Assembly: GCA_903839695.1 (NCBI GenBank)
Contig: CAIMDI010000017.1
Span: 1-51,887, forward strand
Source of the DNA: Candidatus Tayloriibacteriota bacterium
Lineage (GTDB): Bacteria; Patescibacteriota; Minisyncoccia; Phycocordibacterales; PALSA-1337
Length of the DNA: 51,887 bases
Direction of reading: 5' to 3'
The notes beneath the pieces were generated by a model. That model saw only the letters and a program-made list of their open reading frames with translations, had not been told where the DNA came from and did no database searches. Of this stretch, positions 40,235 through 43,083 are shown one piece after another (positions within the stretch are counted from its first letter, which is position 1; the number at the start of each line of letters is the position of its first letter). Both the position numbers and the translations under genes were made by a program.

Positions 40235-41905
40235 TTAGTCTACAATAGAAATCACTCTTTGTAGTTCGTCAAAGGATGTGGTGCCCTGCAGTATCTTTAT
40301 AATACCATCTTGTTTAAGTGTAAGTATTGCTTGAGGTGCTGCAGCCTTTTCTATTTGATCAGCACTAGGATTATTTTCCAGTGTAGCGTTTACTTCAGGG
40401 GTCATAAGTATTCCTTCATAAATACCTATTCTTCCTTTGTATCCAGTGTGATTACATTTTTCACATTCGCTGGCCACAAAAATATTTGCTGGTATAGGGG
40501 GTATATCATTTTTATCATATATTGTTGAAATGATTTGGTCTATCATTATTTTATTTTCTCCATCAATAGGGACTGGTTTTTTACAGAACTCACAAAGTTT
40601 TCTAACCAAACGTTGAGCAAGAACTATATTTATTGCCGAACTAATAATTTTAGGATTTACTTTTAGATCTATAAGTCGAGGAAATGAACCAGCGGCGCTA
40701 TTTGTGTGAAGGGTAGAGAACACCAAGTGACCTGTAAGTGCAGAGTTGATAGCTATTGCCGCTGTTTCTCCATCTCGGATCTCACCAACCATTATTATAT
40801 CTGGATCTTGTCTAAGAGCTGCACGCAATCCATCTAGAAATGTGTATCCTTTATCATTAACTTGTGTTTGCACAATACCTTGTAGATGGTATTCGATAGG
40901 ATCCTCAATGGTAATAATTTTTACAGTTGGATTGTGTGCTTTTTTTAAGAAGGCATAAAGGGTTGTCGTTTTTCCAGAGCCTGTTGGTCCTGTTGTTAAA
41001 AGCATTCCATTGGGTTTGTCTATTTCTTTTAAAATAATATCAAGTAATTTTGGTGGTATACCAAGCTCCTCTAATGGAACACCGATAGACTTTGGATTTA
41101 GAATACGCATAACAATGGACTCGTTGTACGCTCCAGGAAGTATAGATGTACGTATTTCTATGTCCATATCTTTTACATGCACACTGAATCTTCCGTCTTG
41201 AGAGTCTTTTTTAATATTTAATTTTAATCCAGATAATAGTTTTACTCTTGAAAGTAATAGCCCATAAGTGTCTGCATCAAAATCTAAAACTTTTACAAGC
41301 ACTCCGTCCAATCTATATCTAAGTCTTATATAGTCCTCCTCTGGCTCAATGTGTATATCGGATGCTCCGGTTGCTAGGGCACCGGCAAGTATTGTTTCAA
41401 GTATTCTAGAAACTCTGTAACTCTTTTTCATAGAGAGGGTGTTTTCTAGTATAGAAATAATTGTTGGCAATCCGTTTGCTTTTTCTATGATTTCAGATAT
41501 TTCATCGCTCGCTACTTCCAAAGAGCCGGCTTTACTTTCATATGCAAAAGAAAGGTCTTTATAAGAATTCCATGCTTTTTCTAAACTGACCGTAGAACAA
41601 ATATAAAGTACAGGCAATAAACCTTTTGCTTTTAGATTGTTTAAAATTTCTTGAACCTTTGGGTCTTCTGGTATTCTTGTTGCAATTTTGACTTTTTTAT
41701 CTATAAGAGCAAATGCAGCCATTTTGTTTTGTCTGGCAGTATTTTCTTCTATTAATCTTAATGCATCAGTGTTTATAGAATTTACAGTTAGGTCAATGTA
41801 TTCAATACCATATTTACCTGAAAGGAGTTGTACTAATTCTTCCTCCTCTCTTTTTAATAGATCACCAACTCTTCTATTTTGTTTATCTTCGTCAAATTGA
41901 ATCAT
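40235..41905 (-). CDS. PilB/GspE family type IV pilus/type II secretion ATPase
   Basis: 'LLTTGPTGSGKTTTLYAFL', 'TIEDPIEYHLQGIVQTQVN', 'RQDPDIIMVGEIRDGETAAIAI'; start set at MIQFDEDKQNRR (ORF opens at 42001). Confidence 0.95.
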   Translation of the reverse strand: MIQFDEDKQNRRVGDLLKREEEELVQLLSGKYGIEYIDLTVNSINTDALRLIEENTARQNKMAAFALIDKKVKIATRIPEDPKVQEILNNLKAKGLLPVLYICSTVSLEKAWNSYKDLSFAYESKAGSLEVASDEISEIIEKANGLPTIISILENTLSMKKSYRVSRILETILAGALATGASDIHIEPEEDYIRLRYRLDGVLVKVLDFDADTYGLLLSRVKLLSGLKLNIKKDSQDGRFSVHVKDMDIEIRTSILPGAYNESIVMRILNPKSIGVPLEELGIPPKLLDIILKEIDKPNGMLLTTGPTGSGKTTTLYAFLKKAHNPTVKIITIEDPIEYHLQGIVQTQVNDKGYTFLDGLRAALRQDPDIIMVGEIRDGETAAIAINSALTGHLVFSTLHTNSAAGSFPRLIDLKVNPKIISSAINIVLAQRLVRKLCEFCKKPVPIDGENKIMIDQIISTIYDKNDIPPIPANIFVASECEKCNHTGYKGRIGIYEGILMTPEVNATLENNPSADQIEKAAAPQAILTLKQDGIIKILQGTTSFDELQRVISIVD

Positions 41906-41958: not shown

Positions 41959-41986
41959 TTGACATTGCCATCAAATATGATATAAT
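41959..41986 (+). promoter_or_regulatory. Consensus sigma70-type promoter
   Basis: TTGACA (41959-41964), 16-nt spacer, TATAAT (41981-41986). Confidence 0.8.
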
Positions 41987-41993
41987 ATAGGTA

Positions 41994-42014
41994 AAGCTCA
42001 AATGTCTTGAGCTT
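41994..42014 (+). promoter_or_regulatory. 5'-UTR stem-loop
   Basis: AAGCTCAA-ATGTC-TTGAGCTT, 8-bp perfect stem at the predicted transcript start. Confidence 0.7.
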
Positions 42015-42036
42015 GTGAAAGGAAAAAAGAGAAAAT

Positions 42037-42522
42037 ATGAGAAGTTCTTTTAAAATCTTGTTGGTAGCATTTGTGTTGGTTATGTTTGGTAGTATGGCAG
42101 GGCACGCTGAGACTTCGCTGAAAAAACTTTTCAGCCTTAAGAAAGCGGAGGGTGAAAGCCCTTATGTCCGTACACCACCGGCTCCACCAATGCCAACGGA
42201 AACGAACCCGAGCAGTGTCCAAGTGTTCGTACTCATGCCCAATGAGGCGATACCTTGGAGCCGGGTTGCACCAAAACCAGCCGACAGAACGGGTGAAACC
42301 GTTTTGTATAAAGACGGTTTAGAAATGGTCCGGTACTACTATGTGCGCGGCGACCAGTGGGTCGCCGAATACAGTGAAGTACGAAAGGGAAGATGGGTGA
42401 AAGTTGTGACAGTCACAACCACACTCTCTTGGTCCTATGGTGCATGGACCAACAAGGTGGTGGTCTCACCACCAGTCATGGTTCCAGACCGTGGAACCAA
42501 AAGCAGTAGAGGTAGACATTAA
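42037..42522 (+). CDS. Small secreted protein of unknown function with hairpin-dense mRNA
   Basis: Signal peptide 'MRSSFKILLVAFVLVMFGSMAGHAE'; own promoter and terminator; ~50-57% GC in the parts I counted. Confidence 0.75.
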   Translation: MRSSFKILLVAFVLVMFGSMAGHAETSLKKLFSLKKAEGESPYVRTPPAPPMPTETNPSSVQVFVLMPNEAIPWSRVAPKPADRTGETVLYKDGLEMVRYYYVRGDQWVAEYSEVRKGRWVKVVTVTTTLSWSYGAWTNKVVVSPPVMVPDRGTKSSRGRH

Positions 42523-42538
42523 TTGCTACCTCTGCAAC

Positions 42539-42574
42539 CCAGCCCCTCTCAAATTGAGATGTGGGCTGGTTTTT
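42539..42574 (+). terminator. Strong Rho-independent terminator
   Basis: CCAGCCC … TCTCA-AAT-TGAGA … GGGCTGG followed by TTTTT. Confidence 0.92.
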
Positions 42575-42642
42575 GTTTTATTTATATTAAATTTTCTTAT
42601 TTATGCTATATTTATTTTAATAAAATAATTTTGCCATATAAA

Positions 42643-43083
42643 ATGAAAAAAACATTTATTACACATTCTTTAGAGGAAACACAAAAATTTGCTAAAGATT
42701 GGTTGGCATCTTTGCCTTTTGAAAGTGATGAAGCAACAATAGTAGGACTTTATGGAAATCTCGGTTCAGGAAAAACAACTTTTACACAATCCGTAGCAAA
42801 GGAATTAGGTATTCATTCTTCAGTTACTAGTCCTACTTTTGTTATAGAAAAATTATATGAAACAAATCACTCACATTTTGCTAGACTTATTCACATTGAT
42901 GCATATAGATTAGAAAGCGGACGAGAATTACAAACACTTAATTTTGAGGATTTAGTTGATAATCCAAATAATTTAATAATTATAGAGTGGCCAGAAAATA
43001 TTAAAGAGATTTTACCAGAAAATCATTTGAAAATACTTTGTGAATTTGTCGATGAGAATTCTAGGAAATTTGAGGTACAATAG
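42643..43083 (+). CDS. tsaE: tRNA threonylcarbamoyladenosine biosynthesis ATPase TsaE
   Basis: 'GLYGNLGSGKTTFTQSVAKELG', 'VTSPTFVIEKLY', 'HIDAYRLE'; start set at the MKKTFITHSLEET ATG. Confidence 0.93.
   Translation: MKKTFITHSLEETQKFAKDWLASLPFESDEATIVGLYGNLGSGKTTFTQSVAKELGIHSSVTSPTFVIEKLYETNHSHFARLIHIDAYRLESGRELQTLNFEDLVDNPNNLIIIEWPENIKEILPENHLKILCEFVDENSRKFEVQ

Follow-up and report, generated by a model that had tools for sequence, protein, structure and literature searches.

The message of Escherichia coli lpp, which encodes the Braun lipoprotein, is heavily structured. It has a half-life of 11.5 min, whereas the average is 1.3 min (PMC10260701). RNases E and Y depend on AU-rich sites that are single-stranded, and structure at the 5′ end stabilises mRNA (PMC3997798). 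Selection on the folding of coding sequences is likewise already known, with a delta-LFE signal reported to be weak in bacteria that have a low GC content or depend on a host (PMC7063772). Such selection usually appears as a faint genome-wide average; here, individual genes display it so strongly that it can be seen by eye, at a fixed genomic slot and in otherwise dissimilar proteins.

The window, that is the whole analysed stretch of 51,887 nucleotides (contig CAIMDI010000017.1), belongs to a Candidatus Tayloriibacteriota genome of 732 kb in 36 contigs. Divergent pilB and tsaE flank a gene that resembles lpp in being short, monocistronic and coding for an exported protein, in having a strong promoter in AT-rich DNA and a strong terminator, and in combining this strong promoter with a heavily structured message. 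It differs from lpp in that its protein has neither a lipobox nor a family match, in that the lifetime of its mRNA is predicted whereas that of lpp mRNA was measured, and in that the proteins found at this position are hypervariable whereas Lpp is conserved. The features of the locus are the following:

40235..41905, - strand: pilB, divergent upstream neighbour, PilB/GspE-type ATPase (pilus ATPase), from the ORF and its translation, named from sequence motifs
41959..41986, + strand: promoter TTGACA-16-TATAAT with extended -10, 12/12 matches to the sigma-70-type consensus
41994..42014, + strand: 5′ stem-loop AAGCTCAA-atgtc-TTGAGCTT, 8 bp, beginning at about +2 of the inferred transcript (+1 at 41993, from the position of the -10 box)
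42037..42522, + strand: CDS of the family-less exported protein, 161 aa, with N-terminal signal peptide MRSSFKILLVAFVLVMFGSMAGHA
42117..42135, + strand: CDS hairpin GCTGAAAA-aac-TTTTCAGC, 8 bp
42296..42320, + strand: CDS hairpin AAACCGT/ACGGTTT, 7 bp, with a possible alternative overlapping stem AACGG-gtgaaa-CCGTT
42348..42367, + strand: CDS hairpin CGGCGACC-agtg-GGTCGCCG, 8 bp
42403..42419, + strand: CDS hairpin GTTGTGA-cag-TCACAAC, 7 bp
42429..42452, + strand: CDS hairpin TTGGTCC/GGACCAA, 7 bp
42458..42474, + strand: CDS hairpin TGGTGGT-ctc-ACCACCA, 7 bp
42479..42499, + strand: CDS hairpin TGGTTCCA/TGGAACCA, 8 bp
42508..42533, + strand: hairpin AGAGGTAG/CTACCTCT, 8 bp, across the stop codon
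42536..42576, + strand: Rho-independent terminator, CCAGCCC/GGGCTGG stem with CTCAAATTGAG nested in the loop, followed by a T-rich run
42643..43083, + strand: tsaE, downstream neighbour, TsaE-like P-loop protein, named from sequence motifs

The original prediction, made from the letters alone, had described a secreted-protein gene with perfect short hairpins following one another along its mRNA, arranged as a compact unit of consensus promoter, 5′ stem-loop and terminator with a GC content well above that of its surroundings. All the perfect stems that it listed are present at the coordinates given, one of them (TGGTTCC/GGAACCA, 42479-42499) being lengthened by our scan from 7 to 8 bp, and the hairpin at 42348..42367 sits within a 23-nt imperfect inverted repeat (42333-42382). 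The elements of the compact unit were likewise found, as were the signal-peptide-like N-terminus of the ORF and the difference in GC (0.49 in the CDS vs 0.33 in the window). Because the loop of the terminator is long (17 nt), a consensus terminator scanner missed it.

The signal-peptide-like N-terminus of the window protein ends ...SMAGHA-ETS, and inspection of the sequence found no lipobox cysteine in it. The protein matched no Pfam family, no NCBIfam family and no PHROGs entry. Searches by sequence gave weak, chance-like matches and nothing better in 53 family genomes, and no relatives in viral contigs or in GTDB contigs; four of the weak matches (L002, L003, L005 and L010) were rejected as homologs since they were other genes or antisense frames. 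Relatives of the window gene are thus detectable through their position and not through sequence search, the homology of the window protein to the lipoproteins encoded at this position in its genus being weak (17-29% identity). An AlphaFold2 model of the window protein alone was uninterpretable (pLDDT 49). The best explanation is that the gene product is a small, fast-evolving exported protein of the envelope or surface.

We then quantified the folding of the message. The region 41990-42575 folds with an MFE of -233.9 kcal/mol, which corresponds to a z of -9.5 against dinucleotide shuffles, none of 100 being as low. For the CDS, shuffles that kept the protein and the codon counts gave a sense z of -6.05 (400 shuffles; values from different runs span -5.2 to -8.3), and the closest of the 400 was still more than 18 kcal/mol away from the native MFE. 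When perfect stems of at least 7 bp with a loop of 3-20 nt were counted, the CDS contained 7; over 1500 protein-preserving shuffles the mean was 0.66 and the highest count 4. The 5-bp CTCAT/ATGAG stem of the original list (42232-42246) is not significant alone. A sliding count over the window with a width of 550 nt found 10 perfect stems in the region vs a mean of 1.0. Stem bases of the CDS are spread evenly over the three codon positions (33/35/36), indicating that both synonymous and amino-acid-changing sites contribute to the stems. None of the 43 other ORFs of the window lies below z = -2.8, and the window gene ranks first for structure among the 537 ORFs tested in its own genome (out of 670, from 686 kb of the 732 kb). 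The ORFs ranked second and third do not resemble genes for short secreted proteins, and an EF-Tu-like ORF has a z of +1.2. Across this genome promoter score and structure z are uncorrelated; a strong promoter was accordingly rejected as the cause of structure, and abundance alone is an insufficient explanation.

To follow the gene through position, pilB and tsaE were used as synteny anchors. The named relatives of its TsaE belong to Candidatus Paceibacterota (Taylor-, Nomura-, Zambryski- and Kaiserbacteria). Among the six other genomes of the genus, four (G036, G037, G039 and G038, the last with two in tandem) carry next to tsaE a unit of promoter, signal-peptide gene and terminator, with a promoter of the window-gene type in the same place in every unit, including both of G038; G035 has no such unit, and tsaE was not found in G040. 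The proteins encoded in these slots share 17-34% pairwise identity, with the exception of G036/G039 (58%), whereas TsaE of the genus genomes is 64-88% identical to that of the window. The slot is comparable in this respect to hypervariable surface-protein loci, in which short exported proteins or lipoproteins vary at a fixed position beside conserved neighbours, and it differs from them in adding selection on mRNA structure and a raised GC content. A profile of the genus slot genes gave no convincing match outside the genus. Order-wide, we found 119 loci with divergent pilB and tsaE, of which 96 have a gap of at least 250 bp; 75 of these 96 gaps contain a short exported or lipoprotein gene, with signal peptides called by a simple hydrophobicity rule. 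The 78 distinct slot proteins (a set that retains the doubtful ORFs L068, L082, L113 and L190:26) include 46 with a lipobox-like motif, and in 72 of the 78 cases GC was higher in the slot gene than in the adjacent pilB (mean difference +8.7 points, p = 8e-13). Slot promoters reached a mean score of 9.7 of 12.5, compared to 7.0 in shuffled sequence, with 58 of 75 scoring at least 9. The window gene shares the divergent pilB/tsaE position, its own promoter, a signal peptide and a GC content above that of pilB. Some groups of homologs exist among the slot genes, and a comparison of homologs reveals far greater divergence at third codon positions than at the other two, which shows that slot genes are translated genes. 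A model for one group of slot proteins (L072/L071/L164/L171/L170; pLDDT 73) consists of a helical N-terminal part and a beta-sandwich; Foldseek returned no significant match for it, and the best Z of 7.0 in VIA-align may reflect just a common arrangement. All in all, a conserved accessory slot lies between divergent pilB and tsaE and holds hypervariable short exported genes. At one locus (L065, CAIPUJ010000024.1, 1945-3906), four short exported genes stand in a row within the pilB-tsaE gap, at least three of them with TTGACA-TATAAT promoters.

Structure of the message turned out to be a property of this class. The mean synonymous-shuffle z was -2.15 for slot genes, compared to -0.35 for the first 480 nt of adjacent pilB (p = 8e-10; class p values include related, non-independent species, and GTDB and other genomes may overlap, only identical proteins having been removed). 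Short exported genes elsewhere in the slot-bearing genomes had a mean z of -0.65 and other short genes one of -0.36, and the difference between slot genes and controls remained in each of four GC bins, with p values from 0.001 to 0.04. With 12-25 shuffles per gene, single-gene values scatter. Some slot genes, for instance L072 (z -8.1, 7 stems) and L153 (z -8.2), match the extremity of the window gene. Some slot genes are unstructured, so this is a tendency and not a rule. The phenomenon may also be wider than the pilB-tsaE slot, since other high-GC accessory genes of the window's own genome, G000:C2:6490-6930 among them, tend to be structured as well (mean z -2.25 for 18 ORFs with GC of at least 0.43, window gene included).

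G-U pairs form in RNA, and the opposite strand carries C-A mismatches instead, so that folding of the two strands can be compared. In 74 genes, including two structured genes of the window's own genome outside the slot, the mean z was -2.48 for the sense strand vs -1.80 for the antisense strand (p = 1.5e-4), the sense strand being lower in 70% of them; the values for the window gene were -6.05 and -3.4. The greater structure of the sense strand indicates that RNA is the target. Compared with synonymous shuffles, slot genes pair slightly less in the start region and more in the body, a small effect that agrees with the pattern described for genome-wide selection on CDS folding (PMC7063772), and the body of the window gene is itself folded beyond codon-preserving shuffles. 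The difference from that pattern is that here folding is extreme in a handful of accessory genes, in a genome that is reduced and AT-rich, whereas their neighbours do not have it. In addition, accessible AU-rich 6-mers were modestly depleted in slot genes (7.2 per kb vs 8.4 expected from shuffles, p = 0.006), whereas pilB had 19.0 per kb, the same as its own shuffles. The sense bias, the open start with a paired body and the depletion of AU-rich sites agree in pointing to selection on the transcript, and RNA-level selection for structure in the slot class is in our judgement very probable. The first of the two origins offered by the original prediction, selection for a highly structured mRNA, is thereby supported: the folding goes beyond codon-preserving shuffles, is stronger in sense than in antisense and is met again, across the order, in slot genes that are unrelated. 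It is improbable that a DNA-level process such as template switching or palindrome formation simply deposits inverted repeats in fast-evolving sequence while the RNA is unselected. Perfect, short-looped stems are what such a process would leave, and the antisense strands too exceed their shuffles, but it explains neither the sense bias nor the sparing of the start region; it may nevertheless supply the raw material for stems. What is favoured seems to be local structure in bulk, which arises anew while the protein diverges, rather than a defined RNA element. Between slot homologs, base pairs are mostly kept no more than synonymous shuffles predict (the window gene lacks a close-enough homolog), with the exception of one pair, L177 (the slot gene of G257) and L211 (that of G223), where compensatory changes preserve base pairs more often than in synonymous shuffles (p ~0.01 both ways). 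The original prediction had named homologs that lose the stems without compensatory changes as evidence against it; specific stems are indeed mostly not kept with compensation, and yet the homologs are structured again with other stems, suggesting that bulk structure and not a particular fold is maintained. We consider it quite improbable that the RNA is the product, or a second product (a protein sink, a regulatory or an exported RNA), with the ORF being secondary. The extreme folding energy and the compact transcription unit would suit such an RNA, whereas homologous slot genes evolve as protein genes, their base pairs are mostly unconserved, unlike those of a functional RNA, and Rfam gave no match at the gathering threshold and chance-level matches alone at E up to 10.

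The second origin offered by the original prediction, a foreign one such as a structured-RNA replicon, is not supported, and a recent acquisition from such a replicon, for instance an RNA phage, is highly improbable. Although an orphan protein and a GC content far higher than that of the surroundings would fit an insertion, the same position, promoter type and architecture recur in 4/6 of the other genus genomes and in the wider order, raised GC is typical of the slot, and the gene had neither a PHROGs, Pfam, NCBIfam or Rfam match nor a relative in viral contigs. Near-consensus promoters throughout the class, together with the sense-strand bias, would also be expected if structure in the nascent RNA prevented R-loops or early termination in a strongly transcribed unit, with stability as a by-product, but the genome-wide lack of correlation between promoter strength and structure makes this improbable. 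Somewhat less easily set aside, though still unlikely, is the explanation that hairpins pace translation, slowing ribosomes to a rate that the export and folding of the surface protein can match, with mRNA lifetime not being the target. Nearly all slot genes encode exported proteins, and structure in the middle of coding sequences has been linked to co-translational folding (PMC7063772). Against pacing, little excess folding is seen in short exported genes at other places in the slot-bearing genomes (z -0.65), the stems span the whole message including the stop codon, and the second and third most structured ORFs of the window's own genome are unlike short secreted proteins.

Our preferred reading, to which we assign a probability of roughly 0.5, is that the window gene is strongly transcribed into an mRNA that is shielded from RNases, lives long and encodes an abundant surface protein, in a manner that resembles lpp in its working principle. 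The consensus promoter would ensure heavy transcription. The hairpins, first the stem-loop at about +2, then those that fill the body and finally that of the terminator, would deny enzymes of the RNase E/Y/J type both single-stranded AU-rich entry sites and a free 5′ end. An mRNA shielded in this way would be long-lived and would yield a variable surface protein in plenty, which is its likely purpose. Among the benefits of a structured mRNA that had been listed at the outset (stability, compaction, protein sink or RNA export), stability is the one that we favour. The 8-bp stem-loop that begins roughly 1 nt into the inferred transcript of the window gene recalls the stabilising 5′ stem-loops of the ompA/papA type, with the difference that it is not general in the slot class: with transcription starts placed by the -10 box, a hairpin at the very 5′ end was not enriched (7 of 54 slot genes vs 11.6 expected). 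A 5′-terminal hairpin was therefore rejected as a general mechanism of the class, the stem-loop being peculiar to the window gene and a few relatives. A broader proposal, which we regard as doubtful, is that across Paceibacteria slot messages might be rebuilt into RNase-resistant hairpin chains while their hypervariable surface proteins turn over, to serve free or attached life stages with low transcription. If that were true, cells with low transcription would continue to make contact-surface proteins from long-lived mRNA.

In the literature searched, we found no paper on the pilB-tsaE slot and nothing relevant on structured mRNAs in Patescibacteria. Selection on CDS folding being known (PMC7063772), what appears new relative to that literature is the occurrence, in low-GC and probably host-dependent bacteria, of hypervariable exported genes that share one chromosomal position and whose mRNAs are strongly structured. 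Slot genes and their neighbours, and homologs with different stems, provide a natural contrast for asking what mRNA structure is for. The slot also draws attention to a group of surface proteins, probably abundant ones, from bacteria that are uncultivated and probably depend on hosts, and of whose cell contacts little is understood.

Several further observations were made along the way. The AT-rich genome of the window contains high-GC accessory genes (GC 0.40-0.54) that are seemingly orphan, for instance L250:7403-8107, L241:8639-9379 and L239:5110-5661. The mRNAs of these genes tend towards structure, and their promoters score above average. Outside the slot, a second gene of this genome (G000:C2:6490-6930, that is L235:6490-6930) has the same architecture as the window gene, with a TTGACA-17-TATAAA promoter, a GC content of 0.44 vs 0.33 and a perfect terminator GCCCCGTTGCGCTAGCGCAACGGGGC. 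Its CDS is packed with hairpins (z -12 in a run of 12 shuffles and between -5 and -6 in others), and its product is a membrane-like orphan of 146 aa that is not present in the rest of the family. A stretch of L128 (1080-1680), in which hairpins and repeated blocks are densely packed, was rejected as a gene, being an intergenic repeat without a long ORF. Finally, structured 'ORFs' of L261 and L265 among the controls adjoin a tRNA and the 23S rRNA gene, and L265:774-1067 corresponds to a group I intron within the 23S rRNA gene in a genome of the same order.
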